Assembly: GCA_028691985.1 (NCBI GenBank)
Contig: JAQUYG010000009.1
Location: 1-37,197 of the forward strand
Origin: Minisyncoccota bacterium
GTDB taxonomy: Bacteria; Patescibacteriota; Minisyncoccia; JAHIHE01; JAGLIN01
DNA: 37,197 nucleotides
Reading direction: 5' to 3'
The notes beneath the pieces were generated by a model that saw only the letters and a program-made list of their open reading frames with translations, was not told where the DNA came from and searched no databases. How positions within the stretch are numbered: position 1 is the stretch's first letter; every line of letters starts with the position of its first letter. Made by a program: the position numbers and the translations under genes. This document shows, one piece after another, positions 11,895 through 19,555 of the stretch.

Positions 11895-13316
11895 ATGGAT
11901 ATGAAAAAAATAGATATCGAAAAATTGAAAAAGATATATTTCATAGGAATTGGCGGAATAGGAACGAGCGCGATTGCTCGTTACATGAAATCTCTTAACA
12001 AGGAAGTGGTCGGTTCAGATATAAAACCGTCCTTGGTCACTAAGGGCTTGGAGAAAATCGGAATCGAGGTGAATTATGGTCAGGTTGCTGAAAATATCAC
12101 CGATGATATCGATTTGGTTATTCATACCGCTTCCGTTCCGAAGACAAACCCGGAGCTTGCGGCTGCTGCAGAAAAAGGATTGCAAACAATCACCTATGCC
12201 GAATCGCTCGGGCTCGTATTTAACAGCAGGGAGGGAATCGCGATCTGTGGAACGCACGGAAAATCCACTACAACGGCAATGGTCGGAGGGGTTTTGGAAG
12301 ATGGCGGCATTGATCCGTCGGTTTTGGTGGGAAGTATCGTGCCTCGTTATGGCAGCAATCTGAGGGTAGGCAATAGCGGGCATTTTGTAGCGGAAGCTTG
12401 TGAGTATAGCCATAATTTTATGAGCCTATATCCGCATATTACGATTCTCAATAATATCGAGCTGGATCATACTGATTGTTATGAAGATATCAATAAGATG
12501 AAAGAATCTTTTTTGGATTTTTTGAGGCACTTGCCGGAGAACGGAGTTTTGATCTGCAATGGTGATGATAAAAATGTGCGCGAAGTCGCCTTAAAAATAA
12601 AATCGGAAAAAGGGGATTTAGAGATTTTGTATTTCGGGAAGGATGAAAAAAATGATTTCTATTTAAAAAATTTCAGAGCGTTTTCTGGAAGGACTCATTT
12701 TGAAGTTATGCGCGGTGCGGAAAGTTTAGGAGAGTTCTCTTTGCGTGTTCCGGGAGAATTTAATGCTAGAAATGCTATGGCGGCAATCGTTCTTGGGGTT
12801 TATCTTAATATACCGACGGAAAAGATAAAAGAATCTTTGGAAGGTTTTTTGGGAATTTGGCGCAGGTTTGAAATCAAAGGTGAATATAAAGGCACGCTAG
12901 TAATCTCTGATTATGCTCATCATCCGACGGCGGTTGATCTGACTATTAGGGCGGCCAAAGAATTCTATCCCGATCGCAGAATCGTAGCAGTGTTCCAGCC
13001 GCATCAGCACAACCGCACCCGTGGACTTTACGAAGATTTTTTGAAAAGTTTTGATTTTGCCGATGAAATTATTCTCTCTGAAATCTATGATGTTGCAGGC
13101 AGGGAGGAAACCGAGGATCAAGCAGTGAGTTCACGAAATCTGGTAGAGGATATACAAAAAAGGAATAAAAAGCTGATCGGTCATATTTTTTATGCAAAAG
13201 ACCTAGGCGAAACTAGAAAATTTATTGATGAAAAAACAAAACCCGGCGACATACTGCTTATTATGGGGGCGGGAGATATTTTCGAGATTGCGGACGGATT
13301 AGTTAAGACAGCTTGA
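11895..13316 (+). CDS. murC: MurC, UDP-N-acetylmuramate:L-alanine ligase
   Basis: The 473-residue Mur ligase adds the first amino acid to UDP-MurNAc. The N-terminal Rossmann loop is IYFIGIGGIGTSAIARYM (about 14-31), the P-loop is ICGTHGKSTTTAMV (117-130), and EACEYSHNFM and NNIELDHTDCY carry the metal/substrate residues. The Mur signature WRRFEIKGEYKG.....YAHHPTAV follows at roughly 320-345, and the C-terminal domain has FQPHQHNRT. It ends with TGA, and the promoter for the ABC transporter begins three bases before that stop. The amino acid it accepts cannot be confirmed from sequence. Confidence 0.95.
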   Translation: MDMKKIDIEKLKKIYFIGIGGIGTSAIARYMKSLNKEVVGSDIKPSLVTKGLEKIGIEVNYGQVAENITDDIDLVIHTASVPKTNPELAAAAEKGLQTITYAESLGLVFNSREGIAICGTHGKSTTTAMVGGVLEDGGIDPSVLVGSIVPRYGSNLRVGNSGHFVAEACEYSHNFMSLYPHITILNNIELDHTDCYEDINKMKESFLDFLRHLPENGVLICNGDDKNVREVALKIKSEKGDLEILYFGKDEKNDFYLKNFRAFSGRTHFEVMRGAESLGEFSLRVPGEFNARNAMAAIVLGVYLNIPTEKIKESLEGFLGIWRRFEIKGEYKGTLVISDYAHHPTAVDLTIRAAKEFYPDRRIVAVFQPHQHNRTRGLYEDFLKSFDFADEIILSEIYDVAGREETEDQAVSSRNLVEDIQKRNKKLIGHIFYAKDLGETRKFIDEKTKPGDILLIMGAGDIFEIADGLVKTA

Positions 13317-13340
13317 CTTAAAAAACATTTGTGGTACAAT
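13313..13340 (+). promoter_or_regulatory. Strong promoter for the ABC transporter
   Basis: TTGACT, a 16-base spacer, TACAAT. The -35 overlaps the murC stop codon (TGA 13314-13316), so the ABC gene has its own promoter rather than depending on the mur operon. Confidence 0.75.
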
Positions 13341-13353
13341 ATGCTCTTCAAGT

Positions 13354-13376
13354 GAAAATGCCCTTGAGGCGTTTTC
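13354..13376 (+). other. 5'-leader hairpin ahead of the ABC transporter
   Basis: GAAAATGCC / GGCGTTTTC form a 9-bp stem (one G-U pair) in the roughly 45-base leader between the promoter at 13313 and the ATG at 13393. No T tract follows, so it is not a terminator; it may affect mRNA stability or translation. Confidence 0.4.
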
Positions 13377-13392
13377 TTAAAGTATAAAAAAT

Positions 13393-15150
13393 ATGGAAGA
13401 AGGCTTCCGAGGAGATATCCGGATAATCTGGAGTTTCCTCTCAAAATATAGAAGGAAATTCTACACGATTTTTTTAGTCGTGCTTTTTGGTGCGATCTTG
13501 CAAGCCCTTGTCCCTTATCTTCAAGGTCGTATGCTGTCCTTAATCATAGCCGATGGTATAACCTCAGCTATTTTTACTTGGTTATTCCTTTGGTTTCTTT
13601 TTGTCTATGTCTCGGCATGGACTAATCGATATTGTTCTGTCAACGGCAGCAAAGTTTCAATGAATTGTATGAATGATTTACTGTTGCTCTTGAATGAACA
13701 TTCTATGAACCTTAGACTTTCTTATCACAATAAGAACAAAAGCGGGAAACTTTCTTCTCGCTATATTAAGGCTGGAGACGCACTAGATGCGCTTTTGGAA
13801 AATATCGTTTTTTGGTTCGGTGCTGATATCTTGATGATGGCAATCGCCTTGTTTTTAATCGGCTGGTATATACATTGGGCTATCTTTTTTATTATGTTAA
13901 TTGGTATTTTATTATATTATTTTTTCTCTCTTTATACCTCCGTATCTGTAAATGAGTATATTGCTGCAGGCAATAAATCTTATGAGGAAGCTTACGGGGT
14001 TATAAATGATTCCGTCTCTAATATTAAACTAGTTAAGGCTAATTTTGGTGAAGAGTATGAGAATACGAGAGTGTTGCATATCTTACGACAAAAAACCCTG
14101 CCATCTTTCGATAGCTTCTGGAAAGTAATTGGCAGGACATGGTTTATTCAGGATATAATTGTTTCCTTCTTAACAATCTTTTCTCTCCTTGTAATGATTT
14201 ATTTCCTCCAACAAAAGATTGTAGATATTGGACAAATGGTTGCTTTTATCGGTTATCTATCGCTGATAAAAGCGCCTATGCAAAAAATCGGAGTTAACAT
14301 CAGACATTATCGTCGTTGGATGGCAACTGTTAGACGCGGTTATTCTTTGCTCGATGAAGAGACTGAGGACTATGATGATAAAAATAAAATCAAGCTAGAT
14401 AATATTCGTGGTGAGGTAGAATTTCGGGATGTTTCATTCGCTTATAACGAAACGCGCGAAGTGTTGCACGGTATAAATTTGAAAGCGAAACAAGGAGAGG
14501 TAGTGGCGCTGGTCGGGGAGAGCGGTGTGGGAAAATCGACACTGGTTGATCTTATTTCCAAATATATTTTGCCGACTTCGGGAAATATCTTGCTTGATGG
14601 CGTGGACATACAGAAAGTGAGTCTTAAAGATCTTCGCGGCAATATTGCGATAGTCCCCCAGGATGTCAGCATGTTTAATGACACGGTTCGCAGTAATCTG
14701 ATCTATGGCAGGCCAGATGCGACAGAGGAAGAAATTGAGAACGCAATCAGGGCGGCGAATGTTGAAGATTTTGTGAAGAATTTTCCGAATGGTATGGAAG
14801 AAGAAGTCGGAGAACGCGGAGTGCAGCTTTCTGGTGGACAAAAACAGCGAATCGCTATCGCGCGTGCCATATTGAAAGATCCTAAAATCTTGATTCTGGA
14901 TGAGGCAACTTCATCTCTCGATTCCAAATCTGAATCTCTGGTACAAGAAGCGATGCAAAAATTAATGAAAGGGCGCACTACTTTCGTCATAGCTCACAGA
15001 CTTAGCACGATCACGCATGCTAATCATATCGTGGTTTTGGAAAAAGGAAGGATTGTAGAAGAGGGGACGCACGAAGAACTTATCAAGAATAAGGGTGCAT
15101 ATTACAAGCTATATACGCTTCAATCTCTTGCAATGGACAAAAGGGAATAA
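13393..15150 (+). CDS. ABC exporter half-transporter (MsbA/LmrA type)
   Basis: The 585-residue protein has one six-helix membrane domain (about 20-320) followed by an ATPase domain. Walker A is GESGVGKSTLVD (375-384), the Q-loop is IAIVPQDVSMF, the signature is LSGGQKQRIAIARA (about 478-492), and Walker B is ILILDEATSSLDS with catalytic Glu. The D-loop and H-loop AHRLST follow. All key residues are present, so it should hydrolyse ATP as a homodimer. Relatives export lipids, peptides or drugs; no substrate is shown here, and its position between murC and murB fits a lipid-linked or envelope substrate only by context. Confidence 0.92.
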   Translation: MEEGFRGDIRIIWSFLSKYRRKFYTIFLVVLFGAILQALVPYLQGRMLSLIIADGITSAIFTWLFLWFLFVYVSAWTNRYCSVNGSKVSMNCMNDLLLLLNEHSMNLRLSYHNKNKSGKLSSRYIKAGDALDALLENIVFWFGADILMMAIALFLIGWYIHWAIFFIMLIGILLYYFFSLYTSVSVNEYIAAGNKSYEEAYGVINDSVSNIKLVKANFGEEYENTRVLHILRQKTLPSFDSFWKVIGRTWFIQDIIVSFLTIFSLLVMIYFLQQKIVDIGQMVAFIGYLSLIKAPMQKIGVNIRHYRRWMATVRRGYSLLDEETEDYDDKNKIKLDNIRGEVEFRDVSFAYNETREVLHGINLKAKQGEVVALVGESGVGKSTLVDLISKYILPTSGNILLDGVDIQKVSLKDLRGNIAIVPQDVSMFNDTVRSNLIYGRPDATEEEIENAIRAANVEDFVKNFPNGMEEEVGERGVQLSGGQKQRIAIARAILKDPKILILDEATSSLDSKSESLVQEAMQKLMKGRTTFVIAHRLSTITHANHIVVLEKGRIVEEGTHEELIKNKGAYYKLYTLQSLAMDKRE

Positions 15151-15220: not shown

Positions 15221-16210
15221 ATGGAAAATCAAAAACCACCCTTTATTGAGGAAAATGTTTCTTTGAAAGATTTTTCTGCTTTCAGGATAGGCGGGCCTGC
15301 CCGTTTTTTTTGTGTCATTCGAACTGAAGAAGAAATCAGGAATGCTTTGGATTTTGCCATAGCGAATAAACTGGAGGTTTTTGTACTAGGGGCGGGAAGT
15401 AACCTTCTTTTTTCGGATCGGGGTTTCGATGGTCTGGTTATAAAAATAGAGAACAGAGGCTTCGAAGTGAATGAATCTGGTGCTGACTTTGAAGTGAGAG
15501 TGAGTGGAGGTGTCTATTTGGGTAAGCTTATTTTGGATTTGATGAAAAAGGAGATTGGCGGGCTTGAGTGGGCGGCGGGTATTCCGGCGACCGTGGGTGG
15601 GGCGATATGCAACAATGCTGGTGCTGGTGGCGGCGATACCGCAGAGATGGTGAAGTCCGTGCGTGTTTTTAAAATGAAAAGAAATCCAGAAAGCGGATAT
15701 TTGGAAAGTTATGAATTATCGGAGCTGTCAAAAGAATCTTGCGGATTTTCCTACCGGCAGAGTATTTTTAAAAGCAATAAAGATTATCTGATTATCGATG
15801 CAGTTTTTTTGCTTCAGAAAGGCGATGTTGCGGAGATGCAAAAAATAATCAGGGAGAATCTGGAGAGTCGTAACAAGAAACAGCCCTTGGAATATCCTAA
15901 CATCGGGAGCATCTTTAAGAATCCGGTATTAAGCGAGAGGAAGATGGAGGAGATATTAAAAGATTATCCCGAAGAAAAAATCAAATTCACCTCCGGCTTC
16001 ATTCCTGCAGGATGGCTCATCGAACAAATCGGGCTCAAGGGTAAGAAGATCGGCGGGGCTATGATTTCGGGTAGGCATGCTAATTTTATCGTCAATGTCG
16101 GTGACGCCAAAGCGGAGGATGTGATGATCCTCATAAGTCTTGTAAAGCAAAAAATCCGCACCAAGTTCAACATTCAACTTAAAGAGGAAATCGAGTATAT
16201 AGGATTTTAG
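15221..16210 (+). CDS. murB: MurB, UDP-N-acetylenolpyruvoylglucosamine reductase
   Basis: The 329-residue FAD enzyme reduces the enolpyruvyl group to make UDP-MurNAc. The FAD-binding half includes FSAFRIGGPARF (about 19-30), VLGAGSNLLFSDRGFDG (about 55-71) and GLEWAAGIPATVGGAICNNAG (about 113-133). GFSYRQSIFK supplies the conserved Tyr/Arg. The catalytic Ser lies in NIGSIFKNP, and the C-terminal GRHANFIVN motif holds a conserved Asn. It has no Shine-Dalgarno site (CACTATG). Its own promoter and terminators make it a single-gene unit. Confidence 0.95.
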   Translation: MENQKPPFIEENVSLKDFSAFRIGGPARFFCVIRTEEEIRNALDFAIANKLEVFVLGAGSNLLFSDRGFDGLVIKIENRGFEVNESGADFEVRVSGGVYLGKLILDLMKKEIGGLEWAAGIPATVGGAICNNAGAGGGDTAEMVKSVRVFKMKRNPESGYLESYELSELSKESCGFSYRQSIFKSNKDYLIIDAVFLLQKGDVAEMQKIIRENLESRNKKQPLEYPNIGSIFKNPVLSERKMEEILKDYPEEKIKFTSGFIPAGWLIEQIGLKGKKIGGAMISGRHANFIVNVGDAKAEDVMILISLVKQKIRTKFNIQLKEEIEYIGF

Positions 16211-16281: not shown

Positions 16282-16309
16282 TTGACTTTTGCTTTAAAGA
16301 ATATATAAT
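16282..16309 (+). promoter_or_regulatory. Near-consensus promoter
   Basis: TTGACT, a 16-base spacer, TATAAT. It is among the best promoters in the window and precedes the two-gene orphan operon by about 120 bases of leader. Confidence 0.8.
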
Positions 16310-16333
16310 AAGTAGTTCTTTGACAAACTTTAT

Positions 16334-16379
16334 CAAGCCGCTTGAGTTCGTAAAAAATTTTGCGGATTTTTACGGCTTG
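16334..16379 (+). promoter_or_regulatory. Structured 5' leader of the orphan operon
   Basis: Two nested stem segments can be drawn. CAAGCC pairs with GGCTTG and GTAAAAA pairs with TTTTTAC, together a 13-bp stem with a 10-base bulge on the 5' side and a 10-base loop. No T tract follows, so it is not an ordinary terminator. It lies between the promoter and a strong ribosome site, which makes it a candidate cis-regulatory RNA. Confidence 0.4.
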
Positions 16380-16432
16380 GTAAAAAAAATATAAATAAAA
16401 ACAAGCTAAAGCATTATTGGAGGTGATACTAG

Positions 16433-17041
16433 ATAGATTCTGCATCGGAATTCAGTAAGGAAAAATGGGAGAAAACTTCAATTATAAAATTATGGAAACT
16501 GTTTTGTTTCTATAATGAGCTGATAGGTCAAAAAGATAGATTGGCTTATGCTTGCCATTTTACTATTTGGCCAAATGACCGTACAGGTTATGATATCCGT
16601 GTTGTCGAATCTGGCTTTTTTTGTCGGGATGGGTCTGATTCTACCACAGGATTTTATGGGTCAGAGCCTATCACATATGAGGAGCTTATTCATATTATCT
16701 ACAAATATGATAATCCTTCTGGAAGTTATGCTGTAATCAATAATTTTATAAAAGATTTTTTCTCAATCGGTGGGGTAGTATTAGATCGCTGGCTGTCGAA
16801 AATCAATGAAATAATTGAAAAACCCATATCCGACGAAGAATACGGGAATTTAGATAAAATAATTGTCGATAATAAAAAACAAACGGCGTTAGGATGGTTG
16901 GCCAAAGTTGAAAAATTCTCACATTCAAGGCTTTATTCTCCTCCCATCGCTGAGGAATATATTGAGAAAGCAAAACAAATTTGGCCTCAGGTTGATATTT
17001 CTGGGGCAGAACAGATCATAAAAGATAAGGAGGTTCTATAA
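16433..17041 (+). CDS. Unknown protein, apparently ATA start, first gene of the orphan operon
   Basis: The open frame starts right after an in-frame TAG (16430-16432). GGAGGTGA at 16419-16426, the best ribosome site in the window, lies six bases before ATA at 16433, and the residues that follow (DSASEFSKEKWEKTS, then LWKLFCFYNELIGQKDR) look like real protein. The first conventional start, TTG 16541, has no ribosome site and would remove 36 such residues. The product from ATA is 202 residues, soluble, mostly helical in the second half, with an aromatic-rich middle (HFTIWPNDRTGYDIRV). No family is recognised. The stop overlaps the next gene. Confidence 0.6.
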   Translation: MDSASEFSKEKWEKTSIIKLWKLFCFYNELIGQKDRLAYACHFTIWPNDRTGYDIRVVESGFFCRDGSDSTTGFYGSEPITYEELIHIIYKYDNPSGSYAVINNFIKDFFSIGGVVLDRWLSKINEIIEKPISDEEYGNLDKIIVDNKKQTALGWLAKVEKFSHSRLYSPPIAEEYIEKAKQIWPQVDISGAEQIIKDKEVL

Positions 17042-17844
17042 TTCAAATCTCTGATAGTACAGCCTCTAATGCTTTTGGTATTTACCAAGTCTCAAAAGCA
17101 AAGGGAGAGGAATTGTATAAAAATGGAGAGTGGTTTAACGCTCGCATTAAATTAAAGATGGCGAGAGAAGCGGCAATGGATCTATTTTCTCCTGTTTTCG
17201 CAGAGGAACTTTGGGCAGCAAGATATGACATTTTTAAGAATGAAAATCTATTGTCTGATGAGAAAATAGCAAAATATGAGGGGGAAGTTGTTCCTGATTG
17301 TAGATTATTCTTAGAGCTAACCGCAAATCAGAAACGATATGTGGAGGAAAGGGTTTCGGTAATAAAACTTCTACTTTTAATCCCTGGACAAAATATTAAA
17401 GAACTTTGTTGCCTGGGGATTAAGGATCTTAAGGCTTCAGATTTAGCAGAAGTAAACAAAAGAAATTTAGAAGCAGAATTCCTTAATTCGTTGGCAATAC
17501 CTTATAAACGAACTAATACTCCTAAAGCAGTAAGAATCTTAAGACGAGGGTTAGACCTAGCAGTTCCAGGAACTGTTATCTCTGGACATTTGCTACAGAA
17601 TTTGGGTGATTGTTTTAAAAACTATTTTAAGCTTGAAAGAGGTCTTGATAAAGAAGAAACTTGCCTCAAGGACGGCAACGAAAAAGACAAAGGAGAGGCT
17701 TATATAGATATGATAGGAGCTTATGACAAAGCTATTAAATGCTGGAATAAAGCTCTTGAATTGTATCCGAAGCAAAACAAAGAACATAGGAGATCTGTTC
17801 AAGAAAGGATAAAGAGCATAGAAGAGGAAAAAGATAAGATTTAA
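17038..17844 (+). CDS. TPR-like unknown protein, apparently ATA or ATT start
   Basis: AAGGAGG at 17027-17033 sits four bases before ATA (17038) and seven before ATT (17041), and no ATG/GTG/TTG is near. ATA overlaps the preceding stop as ATAA, which mimics the common ATGA coupling. A TTG at 17113 has a fair GGGAG site, but it would cut into a first TPR-like helix (SKAKGEELYKNGEWFNA). The 268-residue product has a clearer TPR-like pair near the C-terminus (GAYDKAIKCWNKALELYPK), so it probably binds a protein partner, perhaps the upstream product. No catalytic motif is seen. A good terminator follows. Confidence 0.6.
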   Translation: MIQISDSTASNAFGIYQVSKAKGEELYKNGEWFNARIKLKMAREAAMDLFSPVFAEELWAARYDIFKNENLLSDEKIAKYEGEVVPDCRLFLELTANQKRYVEERVSVIKLLLLIPGQNIKELCCLGIKDLKASDLAEVNKRNLEAEFLNSLAIPYKRTNTPKAVRILRRGLDLAVPGTVISGHLLQNLGDCFKNYFKLERGLDKEETCLKDGNEKDKGEAYIDMIGAYDKAIKCWNKALELYPKQNKEHRRSVQERIKSIEEEKDKI

Positions 17845-18298: not shown

Positions 18299-19555
18299 AT
18301 GCAGAAGATATTGCATGACAATCAGGGGTTATTGTCTTGGATGCCGAAGATGGAGAAGACGACTTTTGATGTTTCGCTTGTGCATTTTTTGCTGATGTTC
18401 GGTTATAAGATGTTCTCGCTTTTCTATCCTCTGTATTTAGTGTCGGTGGGGATTTCGGTGATGAATGTCGGTAGCATATACTTTCTGACCTATTTTGTGA
18501 TATCTGTTTCGTGTGTTGTGATCAATTTTTACATACACAAAATTAATCCTGCCAAGATGGCGGCGTTGGGAATTTTGGGTTATGGCGTGTTTGCGCTTAT
18601 GATGCTTCTTAGTCAGAACATATTTATTTTCTATTTGGCGCAGATCGTGCTTGGATTTTCCGCAGCAGCTTGGCTGGTGTCGCTCAAATTCATCCTGATG
18701 AGTTCTGAAACCGAGAACAAGACCAAAAGCTTCGCCTGGTTCTATGCGATGCCGAGTTATGCGACTGCCATAGCGCCGGCGGTTGGTGGAGCGATCATAT
18801 GGAAGTTCGGATTCCAGGGGGTGTTTTTTGCGAGCTTAGTTATACAGTTTTTAAATGCGACTTATGCGTTTTTTTGTCTTCGCAATAATCTTGATGTATC
18901 GAATTACAAAAAATATAAGATTGTGGAAAATAAATACTCCGATCAGGTGAAGCGATATAAAGAAGCCTTTTTCATTTTAAATGGCAGAAAGAATGTTTTG
19001 CTGATGCTGTGTTTTATCTTCGGTGCTTTAGTCCTAGGTGGAATTTACCGGGCATTTTTTGTACTGCTTCTGAAAGATATGTCTTTTTCTCAGGATGAAA
19101 TCATAAAACTGACATCGGCACTGGCATTTCTATATGTTCCATTTTCGATCCTGGTAATTAAGCTGATGGGAAAGGCGCATAAACAAAAAATAGCGAGTAT
19201 CGGGATGATTGCAGAAGGAGCAGCTTCCATTTTGCTCGGTGTTTTTTATACCGCGCTTTCCGTCGGTGCAATTTTCGTTTTGAATATTCTCGACTCAATG
19301 GGGGCATTGGCACTTGGCAGTGGGAAGAGCGCATTTTTTGCCAAGCGTTTGGAAAAATTGAGAGAAGAGGCATCGACGATTGATTCCGTAATGACTACGC
19401 TCGGTTCGGCACTCGGCGGACTCTTGGGCGGATATGCCATTCTCTTTTTGGGTTATCGGGGAACATTTTTTATCGCCGGCATTTTGGTGTTTGTTGCAGG
19501 AATATATTCTTTGTCTTTGAAGTTTGGGGAGAGAAAACAGAAGCTCTTGTCATAG
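18299..19555 (+). CDS. MFS-family transporter
   Basis: The 418-residue protein has about twelve hydrophobic segments in two halves around a charged central loop (YKKYKIVENKYSDQVKRYKEAF, about 199-222, shown here as the linker region). A conserved first-half pattern (YPLYLVSVGISVMNVGSIYFLTYFV, abbreviated; TM1-TM2) and the second-half GGLLGGYAILFLGYRGTFF match drug-efflux-type MFS proteins. The substrate is unknown. The ATG has no Shine-Dalgarno site. A hairpin terminator follows, so it is a single-gene unit. Confidence 0.82.
   Translation: MQKILHDNQGLLSWMPKMEKTTFDVSLVHFLLMFGYKMFSLFYPLYLVSVGISVMNVGSIYFLTYFVISVSCVVINFYIHKINPAKMAALGILGYGVFALMMLLSQNIFIFYLAQIVLGFSAAAWLVSLKFILMSSETENKTKSFAWFYAMPSYATAIAPAVGGAIIWKFGFQGVFFASLVIQFLNATYAFFCLRNNLDVSNYKKYKIVENKYSDQVKRYKEAFFILNGRKNVLLMLCFIFGALVLGGIYRAFFVLLLKDMSFSQDEIIKLTSALAFLYVPFSILVIKLMGKAHKQKIASIGMIAEGAASILLGVFYTALSVGAIFVLNILDSMGALALGSGKSAFFAKRLEKLREEASTIDSVMTTLGSALGGLLGGYAILFLGYRGTFFIAGILVFVAGIYSLSLKFGERKQKLLS

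Follow-up and report, generated by a model that had tools for sequence, protein, structure and literature searches.

Candidate AUA and AUU start codons behind strong Shine-Dalgarno sequences in a putative two-gene operon of a Minisyncoccota bacterium

How could two neighboring genes be translated when each of them is preceded by a very strong Shine-Dalgarno (SD) sequence and neither has an ATG, GTG or TTG where a start codon is expected? The question is raised by a stretch of 37,197 nucleotides (hereafter the window), that is, contig C27 of a 1.1-Mb genome in 50 contigs (G000), probably of the Patescibacteria/CPR type to judge from its size and relatives. In the window, two open frames of the + strand lie between murB (15221-16210) and the gene of an MFS transporter (18299-19555). 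The first-pass annotation described them as an orphan operon with a near-consensus promoter, a structured leader and translation from ATA and ATT codons. The features of the locus are the following:

16282..16309 (+), sigma-70-type promoter TTGACT-16 nt-TATAAT, 11/12 consensus matches, the best of the region
16315..16327 (+), boxA-like motif GTTCTTTGACAAA, located where the transcript is predicted to have its 5′ end
16329..16384 (+), long leader hairpin, from the fold of 16315-16460
16419..16427 (+), gene 1 SD GGAGGTGAT, nine consecutive pairs with the anti-SD, duplex of -16.6 kcal/mol
16430..16432 (+), in-frame TAG, the codon immediately 5′ of ATA 16433
16433..16435 (+), proposed ATA start of gene 1, 9 nt past GGAGG, aligned with the ATG of the homologue in the related genome G013
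16433..17041 (+), gene 1, 202 codons and stop (TAA 17039-17041), no family match
17027..17034 (+), gene 2 SD AAGGAGGT within the end of gene 1, eight consecutive pairs, duplex of -12.3 kcal/mol
17038..17040 (+), ATA, less likely alternative start of gene 2, 4 nt past GGAGG
17041..17043 (+), proposed ATT start of gene 2, 7 nt past GGAGG, with one base in common with the gene 1 TAA
17041..17844 (+), gene 2, 267 codons and stop, predicted all-helical TPR-like protein

Promoter and leader

The promoter and the structured leader were both confirmed. The folding energy of the leader (16315-16460) is -37 kcal/mol, and shuffled versions average -23.8 (z -3.9). The Rfam search returned no known leader family. 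A similar promoter is located ahead of the same boxA-like motif in the relatives G013 (L140) and G007 (L141).

At the gene 2 locus of G000, G013 and G007, TYCTTTGACAAA is intergenic and soon follows the -10 element. Other matches to TYCTTTGACAAA in the family are mostly placed inside open frames or lack a promoter context. The promoter and the boxA-like TYCTTTGACAAA are kept at this locus in three genera (window 16282-16384; L003 ~2400-2280, - strand; L004 ~1175-1410). Going only by resemblance, GTTCTTTGACAAA may act as boxA, and a NusB-type control of a protein gene through TYCTTTGACAAA at the gene 2 locus is possible.

N-termini, integrity and distribution of the two genes

A strong SD had been annotated before ATA 16433 with no canonical codon at the expected place, and this is the case. 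The 3′ end of GGAGGTGAT is 5 nt upstream of the ATA, which is the sole near-cognate codon in the gene 1 frame within SD range. No earlier start is possible, because TAG 16430-16432 is in frame immediately upstream. The first canonical in-frame codon is TTG 16541 (residue 37), as annotated. Three canonical codons of other frames were rejected as gene 1 starts: TTG 16417 and GTG 16423 overlap the SD and run into TAA 16456, and ATG 16465 does not produce the homologous sequence.

A single homologue of gene 1 was found, in G013 (30% identical), at another locus of that genome. Its ATG is located opposite ATA 16433 in the MAFFT alignment, or 4 residues after it if the alignment is ungapped. The two proteins share the block KxSIxKL (KTSIIKL/KVSIVKL) upstream of TTG 16541, and a start at this TTG would also remove a predicted helix at residues 9-30.

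Homologues of gene 2 are found at the same locus in three genomes of the same family (G013, G007 and G012). Those of G013 and G007 are flanked by murB and MFS homologues; the G012 contig starts within the gene 2 homologue, and the MFS homologue comes next. A repeat-bearing ORF (DPSLEAAFKKYPALEKVFRKYPTVAEVFKRYPHL; L003:2479-2820, + strand) adjoins the G013 homologue on the opposite strand.

The gene 2 N-termini of G013 and G007 are comparable in length, and the multiple alignment puts the start near ATA 17038/ATT 17041. The first canonical in-frame codon of gene 2 is TTG 17113, also in agreement with the first-pass annotation. A protein beginning there would lack at least 14 residues in comparison with even the shortest homologue and would lose most of helix 12-28 of the AlphaFold model (mean pLDDT 69). 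Because BLAST homology extends only 4 residues past TTG 17113, the N-terminus of gene 2 is placed by the multiple alignment, the protein length and the model. ATG 17069, which is in another frame and does not produce the homologous sequence, was rejected. In both genes, the alignments and the helices place the beginning of the protein at or near the ATA and ATA/ATT codons and not at the TTGs, as had been proposed.

Translation from TTG 16541 and TTG 17113 would have the advantage of canonical codons, the first ones in each frame. Neither TTG has an SD of similar strength, the homology and the predicted helices begin upstream of them, and no use would be made of two SD sites that rank among the strongest of the genome. 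Such starts are scarcely credible. The hexamer coding signal upstream of the TTGs equals that downstream of them; the shifted frames score poorly, except for one of gene 2, which is neutral. Gene callers normally allow ATG, GTG and TTG only, and they would truncate both proteins.

All three homologues with readable starts (G013 for gene 1, G013 and G007 for gene 2; 28-33% identical) begin with ATG. The non-canonical codons are not conserved in the available relatives, which are all distant and none of the same genus. The operon could therefore be a pair of pseudogenes which lately lost both ATG starts and is decaying, a reading also favored by the patchy occurrence of both genes within the family and by the low hexamer coding score of gene 1 (7th percentile of its length class). 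This reading is disfavored because both frames are intact, without the stops or frameshifts of a broken frame: the 469 codons offer 248 possible nonsense substitutions, and the chance that both genes were first inactivated by a substitution of the start codon is ~0.0015-0.003 under neutral decay by substitutions only, with no selection for silencing. In addition, the strong SD sites and their spacing are preserved. Start-loss pseudogenes are thus considered unlikely.

A common origin of both starts, in which G became A in each and an ancestral ATGA coupling turned into ATAA, was part of the first-pass annotation and is not supported by the relatives. At this locus of G013 and G007, the conserved leader is followed at once by gene 2, with no gene 1 between them. 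Given this arrangement and the position of the gene 1 homologue elsewhere in G013, no ancestral ATGA junction can be inferred. Moreover, the preferred ATT start of gene 2 would need a G to T change. What stands of that proposal is the initiation at AUA/AUU, which is plausible behind a strong SD and has measured precedents (PMC13009471).

The two-gene operon in its present form appears to be known only from this genome. No homologue outside the family came out of profile searches that covered 384 genomes of the class. No relatives were found by scans of genome contigs with both proteins or of viral contigs with the gene 2 alignment, and gene 1 had no match in phages or plasmids by tblastn. The term orphan is too strong for the pair, given the gene 2 homologues in three genomes of the family and that of gene 1 in one.

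Against Pfam, PADLOC, PHROGs and NCBIfam, gene 1 gave nothing and gene 2 gave only sub-threshold TPR-type or chance matches. The score of gene 2 for Pfam TPR_2 is 24 bits (cut-off of 27). Its AlphaFold model is all helical, and the fold search returned generic helical-repeat matches including TPR proteins, none of them significant; the respective search with gene 1 gave no match. Gene 2 is thus predicted to be a helical TPR-like protein just under the Pfam cut-off. The patchy occurrence of both genes within one family suggests an accessory function.

Start codons and SD sites across the genome

Start codons were surveyed over ~0.6 Mb of the 1.1 Mb, in stretches taken by place on contigs picked by number and not by content. 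Among the 134 genes with a comparable start (i.e., bounded by a homologue), none lacked a canonical codon nearby. In a looser comparison of 155 genes, the few outliers could all be put down to an ATG close to where the homologue begins, or to alignment spill. A reassigned code, or a general use of AUA and AUU as starts, is ruled out, as the compared genes have canonical starts.

The contig might instead show a minority or wrong base, with ATG in most cells. The 50-contig assembly leaves room for such a variant within the population or a mistake of assembly. Each of the two start codons would have to be hit, precisely and independently, by a single-base error, and no other compared gene shows such a start, which makes this very unlikely.

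Side observations concern two further frames and a tRNA gene. At L053:3682-4956 (+), a coding frame has no canonical start near, and the short ATG frame that overlaps it points to a frameshift. In L010, a minus-strand frame of ~380 codons (reverse-complement offsets 12770-13919) is glycosyltransferase-like and has no canonical start near its likely N-terminus (IIALVPAHNEE), for which an ATA start is possible. In bacteria, AUA is normally read by a modified CAU tRNA, and a tRNA-Ile with anticodon UAT is unusual; ARAGORN calls one at L040:15058-15132 (+).

The anti-SD GGATCACCTCCTTTCTA was read at the 3′ end of the 16S rRNA in this genome, G012 and G011, and this end has GGCA in the family (vs. 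GGTA). Ordinary genes here avoid SD sites despite this usual anti-SD. Upstream of 184 confident ATG starts, matches of at least 5 bases to its complement were counted 21 times, and the random expectation is ~43.

The two SDs of the operon are rare in this setting. In a sample of 392 long ATG genes, two have an SD of -12 kcal/mol or better and none has one of -16. Of random positions, 0.02% give a duplex as good as that of gene 1 (-16.6) and 0.55% one as good as that of gene 2 (-12.3). The SD of gene 1 is stronger than that of every longer gene sampled.

In ATG genes with strong SDs, the distance from GGAGG to ATG is 6-9 nt in this genome and 5-12 nt in the relatives. This spacing supports the ATA as the start of gene 1 (9 nt) and the ATT as that of gene 2 (7 nt). 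For gene 2, the SD had been annotated before either ATA 17038 or ATT 17041 with no canonical start there. Both the SD and the lack of a canonical codon were found again, and the ATT is preferred because its 7-nt spacing matches that of the strong-SD ATG genes; the 4 nt of the ATA fall outside the 5-12 nt of the family.

Proposed initiation and comparison with known systems

The reading that we consider probable, though well short of certain, is that the operon consists of two real genes and that both are translated, gene 1 from AUA 16433 and then gene 2 from AUU 17041, with strong SDs rescuing weak codons at a low output sensitive to IF3. We infer that the very strong SD pairing would keep the 30S subunit in place, so that fMet-tRNA could then accept a near-cognate codon. 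Near-cognate starts are disfavored by IF3. The codon would be one which IF3 normally rejects, and the output would be low and would rise as IF3 activity drops. Gene 2 would also be coupled to gene 1 through the overlap of stop and start. The combination of a strong SD with AUA or AUU is probably an indication of low-output or conditional initiation, of a kind already known from a few genes such as that of IF3. If confirmed, the operon would provide natural AUA and AUU starts, in tandem, from a small-genome bacterial lineage that is probably uncultured. It would equally be a test case of SD strength against codon strength where SDs are otherwise avoided.

IF3 (PF00707) is encoded in G000 and all 13 relatives (14/14 genomes of the family). 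The starts of nine infC genes were inspected:

L028-L035 and L059, around 4250-3660 (-), infC of the family

Most of the nine have no ATG, GTG or TTG before the conserved N-terminus and show ATT or ATA instead. The family infC thus appears to start at AUU or AUA. The infC of the window's own genome has canonical candidates further upstream, namely an in-frame TTG and an ATG, the latter near a tmRNA-like 3′ end.

In Escherichia coli, infC and pcnB start at AUU, and infC is autoregulated by IF3. The operon shares with them the AUU start, the presence of an IF3 gene and a family infC with apparent AUU/AUA starts; the proteins are unrelated.

In the start itself, the operon resembles genes of Staphylococcus aureus. 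AUA or AUU starts are known there from infC (AUA), ccpN (AUA), cvfC1 (AUU) and citZ, and extended SDs are reported for the first three (PMC13009471). In poor medium, AUA/AUU reporters reach ~10% of what AUG gives; in rich medium, ccpN attains as much as 30% (PMC13009471). The two marks of such genes, a near-cognate start without a usable canonical codon and an extended SD at working distance, are both present in the operon, and the spacing is normal in either case. In contrast to S. aureus, two adjacent genes are concerned here, in an SD-avoiding genome, and their starts are read from sequence. The non-canonical codon is conserved in relatives for cvfC1 and ccpN, and not in every known case; here it is not conserved in the available ones.

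The GUC start of Streptomyces sigR makes this gene subject to repression by IF3 (PMC5472188). The sigR-rsrA operon resembles the present one in having a non-canonical start and two translationally linked genes. It differs in that sigR is the gene with the non-canonical start (PMC5472188), whereas both genes lack a canonical one here.

The SDs themselves are comparable to that of rpsU in Bacteroidota, where bS21 hides the 16S tail and ribosomes without bS21 favor strong-SD mRNAs (PMC9976891). The respective genes were located in 13 of the 14 genomes of the family:

L067-L079, rpsU of 13 relatives

In a similar manner, strong SDs may mark mRNAs whose translation falls mainly to ribosomes that expose their 16S tail, and the weak codon would make the genes dependent on such ribosomes; this would act alongside the IF3 control and not instead of it. 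The canonical anti-SD combined with SD avoidance in ordinary genes is in favor, as is the strong SD of rpsU in 13/13 relatives (-9.9 to -16.6 kcal/mol), as in Bacteroidota (PMC9976891). The best of these (-16.6, G013) equals the SD of gene 1. Relative to an rpsU-type mark of about -13 kcal/mol, gene 1 passes and gene 2 (-12.3) is just short. On the contrary, a bS21 gene was not detected in the window's genome, either as a PF01165 match or with the family alignment, in an assembly that has gaps. Moreover, a handful of short genes whose expression is probably high also carry strong SDs (those of two pilin-like proteins, HU and others, with S1 moderate), and strength alone may mean high expression. 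The bS21 model is speculative for gene 1 and gene 2, and we give it a modest chance at best. A double gate on the tandem operon, with IF3 acting through the codon and exposed-tail ribosomes through the SD, so that both proteins would appear only as translation capacity shifts, is decidedly unlikely.

The strong SD on each rpsU gene detected in the relatives suggests that a second lineage may share the bS21 mechanism of Bacteroidota. The operon has in common with Bacteroidota rpsU a very strong SD, SD avoidance elsewhere and an intact anti-SD. On the other hand, rpsU encodes bS21 and is autoregulated through it (PMC9976891), whereas the two genes described here are unrelated to it and have AUA and AUU as their proposed starts.
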